DNA of 64,000 bases, from positions 1,240,910 to 1,304,909 of the forward strand of contig NZ_NJER01000001.1 in NCBI RefSeq assembly GCF_002753895.1, written 5' to 3'. Positions 20,278 to 24,136 of the stretch are shown piece by piece (within the stretch, counting starts at the first letter, position 1; each line of letters starts with the position of its first letter). A program made the translations under genes and the position numbers. This DNA comes from Halobacteriovorax sp. JY17 (GTDB lineage Bacteria > Bdellovibrionota > Bacteriovoracia > Bacteriovoracales > Bacteriovoracaceae). The notes beneath the pieces are model-generated. The model saw only the letters and a program-made list of their open reading frames with translations, was not told where the DNA came from and ran no database searches.

Positions 20278-20362
20278 TCTCTAGATTATCTCAGTAATTT
20301 ACGACTTTCGTCAAATTTATTGCTCTTGTCAGCTAAAGCTAAGCGTGGAATATTACTTAATT

Positions 20363-20863
20363 ATGAAAACATTTATCATTATGACCACATTACTCCTTCT
20401 TCAGTCTTGTCTTAAGCCAGAAGAAGTCGAAAATAAGTCTCAAGTCGTAAAGTCTATGGGCGAAACTATCGCTAAACAATATTCTGACATCAATCATCTC
20501 TCCATTGAAGATTTTCAAGCTTTAAGCAAAGAAAGCTACGTTCTGATTGATATTCGTTCGAAACCAGAAATAGAGATTAGCTATATTCCAAATTCAATTA
20601 CACAGAAGTTTTTCGAAGAAAATTTAAGTAATTACCAAGGAAGAAAAGTTATTGTCTACAGCACTATTGGGCCAAGAAGTTCTAAGTACGTTCGAATTTT
20701 AAGAGATAAGAAATTTGATGCTTACAATTTACAAGAAGGAATACTAGGCTGGGCCCATCGTAAACTTCCCCTCCTTGAGTCAGGTAATGAAACTCATCGC
20801 CTTCACGTCTACACAGACGCTTGGAATTTTGCACCAAAGGGCTATGAAGGAGTTTACAAATAA
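20363..20863 (+). CDS. Rhodanese-like lipoprotein lacking the active-site Cys
   Basis: A 166-residue protein with a lipoprotein signal (MKTFIIMTTLLLLQSC, lipid on Cys16). A rhodanese fold follows, with YVLIDIRSKPEIEISYIPNSI near residues 59-79 and VIVYSTIGPRSSKY near 96-109. Active rhodaneses have Cys where this one has Ser100 (STIGPRS instead of CxxGxRS), so sulfur transfer is unlikely and a binding or structural role is inferred. Start ATG 20363 is preferred to a GTG at 20345 because it begins the signal peptide. It is the first gene of an operon and overlaps the next start. Confidence 0.75.
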   Translation: MKTFIIMTTLLLLQSCLKPEEVENKSQVVKSMGETIAKQYSDINHLSIEDFQALSKESYVLIDIRSKPEIEISYIPNSITQKFFEENLSNYQGRKVIVYSTIGPRSSKYVRILRDKKFDAYNLQEGILGWAHRKLPLLESGNETHRLHVYTDAWNFAPKGYEGVYK

Positions 20864-21717
20864 GCGCTCTAGTTTCAATTAACGGAAAAATCACTTCTTC
20901 TAAAGAGGCTTCTATTTCGGTTTTTGACCGAGGCTTTCTCTATGGAGACTCTATTTATGAAGTTACTCAAACTTTTAATAGAAAGATTTTTAAATTAGAA
21001 GATCACTTTGAAAGACTACTCTACAGTGCCATGAAAATGGATATGCCACTAGATTTCTCAATGGAAGATTTAGAAAAAGATCTCATTGCTGTTTTAGATA
21101 AGCTCAATACAAGTAATGCTTACATCAGAATAGTTGTGACAAGAGGTGAAGGTGAAATTGGACTAGACCCAGCACTTGCCACTAAGAATAATGTCATCAT
21201 CATTGTAAAAGAATTACCACCCAATCCTAGCTGGTGGTATACCGATGGTGTACACATGATTATTTCACACACAATGAGAAATCCAAAGAATGCCATTGAC
21301 CCTAGAATCAAGTCTGGAAATTATCTCAATAATGTCATGGCCATGAATGAAGCCAAAAAGGCCGGTGCTTTTGACGCCATTATGTTAAATGGAAAAGGCG
21401 AAATTACAGAGGCCACCACATCAAATATTTGGGTGATAAAAGACGGTGAAATCATCACTCCACCGATCAAGGCGGGACTCCTCGGTGGAATCACGAGAAA
21501 GTCCCTCTTAAAAATTGCCGCAGAAAACTCTTATAACGTGAGTGAGAGAAATTTTGACGAGGACTTCTTAAAGTCTGCAGACGAATGTTTCTTAACTAGT
21601 ACTACAAAGCTTCTAGTTCCCATTACAAAAGTTGATAATCAATCTATTGGAAAGGGGAAGCCCGGTTTAATGACATTGGAGTTGCTTGAACTCTACAAGA
21701 AGACAAATGGTATTTAG
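20860..21717 (+). CDS. Class IV PLP aminotransferase, apparent AUA start
   Basis: A fold-type IV aminotransferase (branched-chain or D-amino acid type) of 285 residues. It shows LVSINGKI at the N-terminus, ISVFDRGFLYGDSIYEV near residues 22-38, the region of the catalytic Lys in RIKSGNYLNN near 150, and GEITEATTSNIW near 182. The reading frame has no ATG, GTG or TTG between the stop at 20845-20847 and the internal ATG at 21031, which would delete conserved sequence. ATA at 20860 overlaps the previous TAA and has AAGGAG seven bases upstream, so I take it as the start. Substrate preference cannot be told. Confidence 0.85.
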   Translation: MSALVSINGKITSSKEASISVFDRGFLYGDSIYEVTQTFNRKIFKLEDHFERLLYSAMKMDMPLDFSMEDLEKDLIAVLDKLNTSNAYIRIVVTRGEGEIGLDPALATKNNVIIIVKELPPNPSWWYTDGVHMIISHTMRNPKNAIDPRIKSGNYLNNVMAMNEAKKAGAFDAIMLNGKGEITEATTSNIWVIKDGEIITPPIKAGLLGGITRKSLLKIAAENSYNVSERNFDEDFLKSADECFLTSTTKLLVPITKVDNQSIGKGKPGLMTLELLELYKKTNGI

Positions 21718-21725
21718 GAAGAATT

Positions 21726-22388
21726 ATGGAAAATAAAGCACAGACTAATGCTCGTAAACTTTTACAAATTCTAGCAGAAGATAAGTATAAAAAGAGACGT
21801 GCTCCTTTCATTATGGGAATGGGAGTCTTAGCCCTCATCCTTGTGACATATACTTTCTTTAGTAATACTCACAAAACGCAGGAGAGCTATCTCATCAGTA
21901 GAGCAGAGAAATTAAGTTTTAAAGACATTGATGGCGCTTTAAAAAAAGGTATCAACTTTGAATCACTCGGTGACCAGAAAAAACATATTCTCTTCTACCT
22001 AGCAGAAGGTCCTTATTCGCTAGAAATTCTCAGTTATTTAAAGAAATCGGGAGTCGACTTCAAGGCTAGAAATTCAAATAGTAGAAACTCTTTAGAAGAT
22101 ATCCTCCTAAACTTAAAACCTACTAATAAAAATCTAGAAGATTACTTCTACGCAAATATTTCAACACTTATCAGCTTAGACCTAGCGGTTAGTAATGAAG
22201 TGATCAAAGAAGCATCTGAGATGTGTGAGAAAAGCTCTCTCGCAACTTGTTTAAAAATGGCCTTCTACTTCAAGGCCATAGGAAGAGCTGACTTAGCAGA
22301 GAGCTACGCTACAAGGTCTTGCTACACTTCTAAAGATGACTCTATCTGCGCCATTGCTAAAAATAATATTTTAAAGGACTCAAAATGA
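21726..22388 (+). CDS. Single-pass membrane protein, possibly repeat-containing
   Basis: A 220-residue protein with a basic cytoplasmic N-terminus, one membrane helix (about 29-43, FIMGMGVLALILVTYTF) and an extracytoplasmic remainder. That part reads like short helical repeats: an ankyrin-like stretch near residues 60-115 (ILSYLKKSGVDFKARNSNSRNSL) and a Sel1/TPR-like end with paired cysteines. It starts 8 bases after the aminotransferase and overlaps adenine deaminase by ATGA. No specific function is recognised. Confidence 0.65.
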   Translation: MENKAQTNARKLLQILAEDKYKKRRAPFIMGMGVLALILVTYTFFSNTHKTQESYLISRAEKLSFKDIDGALKKGINFESLGDQKKHILFYLAEGPYSLEILSYLKKSGVDFKARNSNSRNSLEDILLNLKPTNKNLEDYFYANISTLISLDLAVSNEVIKEASEMCEKSSLATCLKMAFYFKAIGRADLAESYATRSCYTSKDDSICAIAKNNILKDSK

Positions 22389-24136
22389 TTCAATCAAAGA
22401 ATACTCAGCAACTCACTAGAGAAGAACTCAAGCATGTACTAAGTGTTGCGAGAGGTGATGGCGAAATTGATATTCTCATTAAGAATGTAAAAGTTATGGA
22501 TCTTGTAAATGGTGGTATCAATGAAAGCGCTATTGCCATCGCAGGAAAAACTATTGCGGGAACTGGTCTTGAATATCTAGACCAAAAGGCCAAGAGAACT
22601 ATCGATGCCAAGGGAGCCGTTGCTGTTCCAGGTTTTATTGATGGACATCTTCACATTGAATCTTCAATGATGCATCCTTTTGAATTTGAAAGACTGACTC
22701 TTCCTCTTGGAACAACTACTGCCATTTGTGACCCTCATGAAATAACAAATGTAATGGGAGATAAAGGCTTTAGCTGGTTTCTAAGATGTAGTGAACTCAT
22801 GAAACAAAATCTCTTCGTACAGGTTAGCTCATGTGTTCCTGCCCTTCCAGGATTTGAAACAAATGGTGGACCTTTTCCTCTCGAAAAGATGAAGGCCTAT
22901 AAATCCCATCCAAATGTTTTAGGACTTGCTGAGATGATGAACTTCCCAGGAGTCATTAACGCATTCGATGAAGTGCTAGATAAGGTGGAAGAGTTTCAAG
23001 AGATGAATTTAGATGGTCACTGTCCACTAGTTCAAGGAAAAGCTCTTAATGCTTATATTGCGGCAGGTATTCAAAATTGCCACGAAACAATTACTCAAGA
23101 AGAAGGTAGAGAGAAACTATCAAAAGGCATGGCCCTCATTATTAGAGAAGGCTCTGTTGCAAAGAATTTAAAAACTCTTGCCCCTCTTGTAAATGACTTT
23201 AACTCTTGTCAGTGCCTTCTTTGTACTGATGATCGAAATCCTTATGAAATTTTTAACGAAGGTCATATCAATTATCTCGTGAAGAAAATGATAAATGAAA
23301 TTGGAATTGAACCTCACGTTGCTTACAGGCTAAGTTCTTATTCAGCAGCAAAACACTTTGGACTTAAGAGGCTAGGACTCATTGCTCCGGGCAGACAGGC
23401 CGACATCGTCCTTCTTAGCGATTATAAGAATGTAGAAATTAGTGAAGTCTTTATGAAAGGTCTTCCAGTTAAAGAGCATAAGATTGAAGAATCATTAAAA
23501 GAAAACTTAGAAAAATCAAAACCTCCTATCGAAAATACAATGAAGAGAAGCCCTCTCTCTCCTACTGAGATAAAGTTTGAATTTTCAAAAGGAACCTATA
23601 ACGTCATTGAAATTGTAAAAGATGAAATTATTACTAATCACTTAAAAGTTAAATATGACGGCACTAAATTTGAGTCCGATGATATTAGAAAAATCTGTGT
23701 TATTGAGAGATATGGAAAAGGTGTAAAGCCTGCACTTGGACTCGTTAAAGGCTCCGGATTATCCAGTGGCGCTATTGCTTCTTCAGTTGCTCACGACTCT
23801 CATAATATTATTGTGATAGGTGCCGATGAAAGCGACATGACCATTGCCGCCAACAAGCTCATCGAAATGGGAGGTGGTTTCTGTGTTGTAAAAGACGGAA
23901 AAGTCACAGCTTCTCTTGCTCTTCCAATTGCAGGGCTTCTAAGTTTAGAAACCGCGGAAGTCTTAACTGAGGGCATTATTGAACTTAAAAAGGCCTGTAA
24001 AGAAGTTGATGTTCATTTAAATGAGCCTTTTATTCAAATGGCATTTCTCGCCCTTCCAGTTATTCCATCGCTTAAAATCACTGATAAAGGGTTAGTTGAT
24101 GTGACAAAGTTTGAGTTTATAGACTTAAAAGACTAA
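22385..24136 (+). CDS. ade: Adenine deaminase
   Basis: A 583-residue amidohydrolase of the Ade (AdeC) family, which converts adenine to hypoxanthine and ammonia for purine salvage. Metal-site motifs include GHLHIESSMMHP near residues 87-98, DPHEITNVMG near 117-126, and CTDDRNPYEI near 281. The C-terminal region has VGGGF-like MGGGFCVVKDGKV near 498, typical of the family. Length is usual. It is translationally coupled to the upstream membrane protein. Purine salvage fits a predator that feeds on prey nucleic acids (inference). Confidence 0.93.
   Translation: MIQSKNTQQLTREELKHVLSVARGDGEIDILIKNVKVMDLVNGGINESAIAIAGKTIAGTGLEYLDQKAKRTIDAKGAVAVPGFIDGHLHIESSMMHPFEFERLTLPLGTTTAICDPHEITNVMGDKGFSWFLRCSELMKQNLFVQVSSCVPALPGFETNGGPFPLEKMKAYKSHPNVLGLAEMMNFPGVINAFDEVLDKVEEFQEMNLDGHCPLVQGKALNAYIAAGIQNCHETITQEEGREKLSKGMALIIREGSVAKNLKTLAPLVNDFNSCQCLLCTDDRNPYEIFNEGHINYLVKKMINEIGIEPHVAYRLSSYSAAKHFGLKRLGLIAPGRQADIVLLSDYKNVEISEVFMKGLPVKEHKIEESLKENLEKSKPPIENTMKRSPLSPTEIKFEFSKGTYNVIEIVKDEIITNHLKVKYDGTKFESDDIRKICVIERYGKGVKPALGLVKGSGLSSGAIASSVAHDSHNIIVIGADESDMTIAANKLIEMGGGFCVVKDGKVTASLALPIAGLLSLETAEVLTEGIIELKKACKEVDVHLNEPFIQMAFLALPVIPSLKITDKGLVDVTKFEFIDLKD

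Follow-up and report, generated by a model that had tools for sequence, protein, structure and literature searches.

Where does translation begin in a gene whose reading frame offers none of the usual start codons until its conserved domain is already under way? The question arises at a class IV aminotransferase gene in the window, by which we mean the whole 64,000-nucleotide stretch of DNA analysed here. The window comes from the 3.47 Mb Halobacteriovorax-like genome (G000) of a predatory marine bacterium; Halobacteriovorax marinus 36_234_T64 and the Bacteriovoracaceae MAG UBA3083 are among its named relatives matched by sequence. The features at the locus, in window coordinates, are as follows.

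20363–20863, + strand: rhodanese-like lipoprotein gene, from ATG 20363 to stop TAA 20861–20863, with lipobox-like LLLLQSC; PF00581, E 2e-8
20845–20847, + strand: in-frame TGA closing the aminotransferase frame on its 5' side, read from the sequence; not shared by every relative
20847–20852, + strand: Shine-Dalgarno AAGGAG, within the C-terminal codons of the rhodanese gene and 7 nt from ATA
20860–20862, + strand: predicted AUA start codon, the same in 10 orthologues from two clades; position 1 of the family profile
20860–20863, + strand: ATAA, overlap of the predicted AUA start with the UAA stop, counterpart of the common ATGA
20860–21717, + strand: class IV PLP aminotransferase gene, 285 codons; Pfam PF01063, E 4e-62
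21031–21033, + strand: first in-frame ATG, not the start; the Pfam match begins 5' of it
21726–22388, + strand: protein of unknown function, probably with a single membrane segment; order conserved in the genus
22385–24136, + strand: adenine deaminase gene; order conserved in the genus

The aminotransferase frame reads TGA(20845) AGG AGT TTA CAA ATA(20860) AGC GCT CTA GTT TCA ATT AAC GGA. Direct codon reading from the TGA up to ATG 21031 found no ATG, GTG, TTG or CTG, confirming a statement of the earlier note, and the note's description of ATA 20860 as overlapping the upstream TAA, with AAGGAG seven bases off, is exact. At the ATAA, the predicted start of the aminotransferase gene overlaps the stop of the rhodanese gene by 4 nt on the same strand. 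The remaining ATH codons in the frame are ATT 20878, ATC 20890, and ATT at 20914, 20953 and 20986.

The match to the PF01063 profile (210.6 bits against a cut-off of 28.5) places the protein in class IV. The nearest NCBIfam models are PRK08320 (branched-chain transaminase subfamily) and ilvE_I, each scoring below cut-off, and the protein stays short of the branched-chain aminotransferase thresholds of both TIGR01122 (228.5 bits, cut-off 245.55) and PRK08320 (288.8 bits, cut-off 363). We rejected initiation at ATG 21031, which deletes conserved domain sequence: it would cost 57 residues, including FDRGFLYGDSIYEV, which is retained in nearly all orthologues, and HFERL, which presumably contains the arginine for the PLP phosphate, as expected from the fold. 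Both the orthologues and the Pfam match extend upstream of this ATG, bearing out the claim that the conserved N-terminus lies 5' of it. In the alignments to PRK08320 and PRK06680 (NCBIfam), profile position 4 falls on residue 8 of P0001, the translation of the aminotransferase open reading frame, indicating that profile position 1 corresponds to residue 5, the ATA codon.

The rhodanese gene lies directly 5' of the aminotransferase gene in the genus (g1) and also in genera g3, g14, g16 and g35. Its mechanically assigned open reading frame starts at GTG 20345, which is probably too early; a start at ATG 20363 gives the lipoprotein signal MKTFIIMTTLLLLQSC. Between the rhodanese gene and a divergent gene, the intergenic stretch at 20300–20350 of the window is near-invariant in the genus (GTCAA...TTGCTCTTGTCAGCTAAAGCTAAGC), and looks like a promoter region.

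We read the orthologues of the aminotransferase gene in about 70 genomes of the family. All five genomes of the genus (G000, G043, G044, G045 and G046) have ATA at the site, as ATAA or ATAG; the earlier note had looked to relatives for an ATG here, and the genus has none. ATA is also found in G002, from the sister genus g3, whose protein is 56% identical, and in four of the five genomes of a separate genus, g16 (G048, G049, G050 and G051). This gives 10 orthologues with ATA, and an eleventh, G039, has ATT behind GAAGGGG. A Shine-Dalgarno-like purine run (AAGGAG, GGGAG, AGGAG or AAGGGG) occupies the same place in all of the AUA relatives. Most of the AUA orthologues have no ATG, GTG or TTG in frame between the upstream stop and the conserved N-terminus; G049 and G044 are less clean cases, since they have an in-frame ATG and TTG, respectively, 13 codons 5' of the ATA. 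With the exception of G039, the genomes without ATA carry a usual start, which is mostly ATG and is TTG, within TTGA, in G037 and G038.

The AUA genomes fall into two separated clades on a maximum-likelihood tree, requiring at least three changes, and AUA persists among proteins that are just 56–82% identical. Two neighbours of AUA genomes carry ATG. In G047, which groups with the g16 AUA genomes, the site reads CCATGA where theirs reads CCATAA, a single A/G transition. In G003, the sister of G002, the rhodanese gene ends CCT TAA, which precludes ATA, and an ATG lies about two codons further on. The invariance of the ATA alone is weaker evidence than it appears, because its TA is shared with the stop codon and its first A with a rhodanese wobble base. 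Judged from the aligned sequences, AUA at this site across 10 orthologues in two clades is beyond chance.

The same comparison bears on whether the ATA is a sequencing error or the gene is dead, as a single base change would restore ATG. The identical ATA in nine further assemblies excludes a sequencing error, settling a concern about the base that the earlier note had raised, and a pseudogene is hard to reconcile with a full-length open frame that is 82% identical to its nearest relatives and changes mainly at wobble positions. We therefore give practically no weight to either possibility.

We next consider where the coding frame changes, using pairwise differences among six AUA genomes counted by aminotransferase codon position. 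In the five codons 5' of the ATA, there were 24, 13 and 14 differences at positions 1, 2 and 3, respectively, position 1 being the rhodanese wobble position. From the fourth codon past the ATA onward, there were 118, 69 and 199 differences, an excess at the aminotransferase wobble position. This shift of the wobble excess from the rhodanese frame to the aminotransferase frame indicates that the coding frame changes at the ATAA overlap. The first two codons past the ATA vary freely, and the codons of L-V-x-I-N-G behave like coding sequence. The latter observation argues against a start at another non-standard codon, such as AUU 20878, AUC 20890 or a codon of the CTA/TTA type: ATH codons do exist downstream of the ATA, but the conserved L-V codons that precede AUU 20878 behave as coding, codon 20878 itself drifts between ATT and ATA like an ordinary isoleucine codon, and no candidate has a Shine-Dalgarno sequence at proper spacing. 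We consider a start at any of these codons very unlikely.

Slightly less likely still is a −1 ribosomal frameshift at the rhodanese stop, which would yield a rhodanese–aminotransferase fusion and remove the need for a separate start. The direction in which the two frames overlap fits a frameshift, but there is no conserved slippery site, the rhodanese gene ending in TAC AAA TAA in the genus, TAC CCA TAA in G002, and otherwise in g16. Moreover, the two proteins are separate in relatives that have an ATG start, and fusion to a lipoprotein would mislocate a PLP enzyme. A start at AUA 20860 was inferred from the lack of another start, the Shine-Dalgarno sequence, the family profile, and the natural experiments among relatives. 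With conservation in its favour and the alternatives excluded, the earlier note's claim that AUA 20860 is the start is strongly supported, and on these sequence comparisons we conclude that it is very probably the initiation site.

We propose that translation of the aminotransferase would begin at AUA 20860, decoded by ordinary initiator fMet-tRNA. Ribosomes finishing the rhodanese gene would terminate at UAA 20861–20863; the AAGGAG helix would hold the mRNA, and either the terminating ribosomes or fresh 30S subunits would initiate one base back, on the AUA. Translation of the aminotransferase would then be coupled to rhodanese termination. Searching by anticodon-arm pattern turned up one initiator tRNA gene, an ordinary one that carries the anticodon CAU; AUA would therefore be read via a third-position mismatch, and an unusual initiator tRNA was ruled out. 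Predicted RNA folding at the ribosome-binding region was no more stable than that of shuffled sequences (z ~ +1). By analogy with the AUA starts measured in S. aureus, the weak AUA probably lowers aminotransferase output, acting as a natural brake that would keep the ratio of enzyme to rhodanese low, and control by IF3 is possible. Taken as a whole, the explanation that combines an AUA start, termination coupling and reduced output appears likely to us.

In E. coli, the AUU start of pcnB holds the level of a cellular enzyme low. The aminotransferase resembles pcnB in having a non-AUG start on a cellular enzyme gene, and differs from it in that the codon is AUA rather than AUU. The earlier note's analogy with infC is apt, as infC of G000 itself starts with AUU. 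Ribosome profiling in S. aureus has located conserved AUA starts at infC and ccpN, and the ccpN AUA start is also conserved in B. subtilis (PMC13009471). In the same study, S. aureus non-canonical starts gave ~10% of the output of AUG, with reporter output for ccpN at ~10% in RPMI and up to 30% in BHI (PMC13009471). Like infC, which starts with AUU as in E. coli or with AUA as in S. aureus (PMC13009471), the aminotransferase gene combines an AUH start with a strong Shine-Dalgarno sequence and conservation across species; unlike infC, which is autoregulated through IF3, it encodes no translation factor and has a start that overlaps a stop. It shares with ccpN of S. aureus and B. subtilis the conserved AUA and strong Shine-Dalgarno sequence, but ccpN encodes a Firmicutes transcriptional repressor, and the available part of the report describes no stop–start overlap there (PMC13009471). 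Translational coupling is established for ATGA or TGATG stop–start overlaps (PMC6728339). The −4 ATGA overlaps of that report (PMC6728339) have the geometry seen here, with the Shine-Dalgarno sequence inside the upstream gene, whereas here one base is changed, giving ATAA with a UAA stop and an AUA start. We found no AUA start within a stop–start overlap in the literature searched, which is weak evidence of absence. The AUA start is of a known kind; the lineage, the gene and the AUAA stop–start geometry are new.

The purpose of the AUA, as distinct from its position, is contested by neutral drift, in which a change of the rhodanese stop from TGA to TAA turned ATGA into ATAA and the strong Shine-Dalgarno sequence made the poor start tolerable, with no regulatory role. 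Stop-codon usage is consistent with drift: among 686 screened genes in the first 800 kb, TAA accounts for 430 stops, TAG for 185, and TGA for just 71. Drift is also favoured by the single transition that separates the ATGA and ATAA forms, as seen in G047, and by the two additional class IV aminotransferases encoded in G000. Pressure towards TAA is not irresistible, however, as TGA has been kept in 37 overlaps with a usual start in the same 800 kb (17 ATGA, 14 GTGA and 6 TTGA, taking each in-frame triplet as a true start), suggesting that such overlaps are generally stable in G000. The endurance of AUA in two separated clades, despite the divergence of the proteins, also argues against drift. 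We regard drift as a real possibility, somewhat short of an even chance.

To place the AUA among other non-AUG starts in the genome, we compared G000 with G043, a syntenic genome of the genus, over 1.2 Mb and 1,024 pairs of orthologous open reading frames, looking for conserved coding sequence 5' of the first ATG, GTG or TTG in both. Five of the 1,024 genes appear to show this pattern, namely the aminotransferase gene, infC, and the three below, for which the alignments were judged by eye and the calls are less certain (coordinates of G000).

C1:1046596–1047030, − strand: YqaA-like membrane protein, probable AUU start; AUU in G043, AUC in G045
C1:1400478–1401029, + strand: M23-like peptidase, probable AUC start, kept in G000, G043 and G045
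C1:574423, + strand: secreted protein, probable AUU start (AAGGAGTAGGTT ATT AAG AAA), same in G043

The infC gene, encoding IF3 (C1:989510–990052, − strand), has its AUU start behind TTGGAGGTGATTT and retains it in 11 of the 11 family genomes in which the frame was read; its unaided recovery by the screen serves as a positive control. The YqaA-like gene has a nearby ATG instead in G044 and G046, and the start of the M23-like peptidase gene overlaps the 3' end of the preceding gene. Two further pairs, a131/a1146 and a76/a1058, were dropped by inspection as probable shadow open reading frames. A GDPD-like gene at C1:1044561 (+ strand) and an open reading frame at C1:908153 (− strand) were also set aside: both start upstream, at ATG, in G043, and the G000 copies look broken. 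In each of these two G000 copies, the N-terminus is cut by a stop, consistent with broken genes or assembly errors. From these alignments, four conserved AUU/AUC starts, including that of infC, probably exist besides the aminotransferase AUA. A more speculative idea, which we think unlikely, is that the AUA, AUU and AUC starts of the Bacteriovoracaceae mark a small group of genes, several of them stop-coupled, that are deliberately throttled and whose output would shift jointly with IF3 level or growth state (attack phase versus growth in prey).

It is difficult to demonstrate an AUA start in nature, and gene callers limited to ATG, GTG and TTG overlook such starts; they would annotate this aminotransferase with 57 residues missing, among them part of the conserved domain. 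The same genomes seem to contain a handful of other conserved starts at AUU or AUC. The overlap of start and stop in AUAA gives a direct handle on whether termination–reinitiation can use AUA, and the occurrence of AUA in two lineages, alongside ATG relatives that differ by a single base (G047) or start nearby (G003), provides a ready natural experiment on the retention of a poor start codon in this family.
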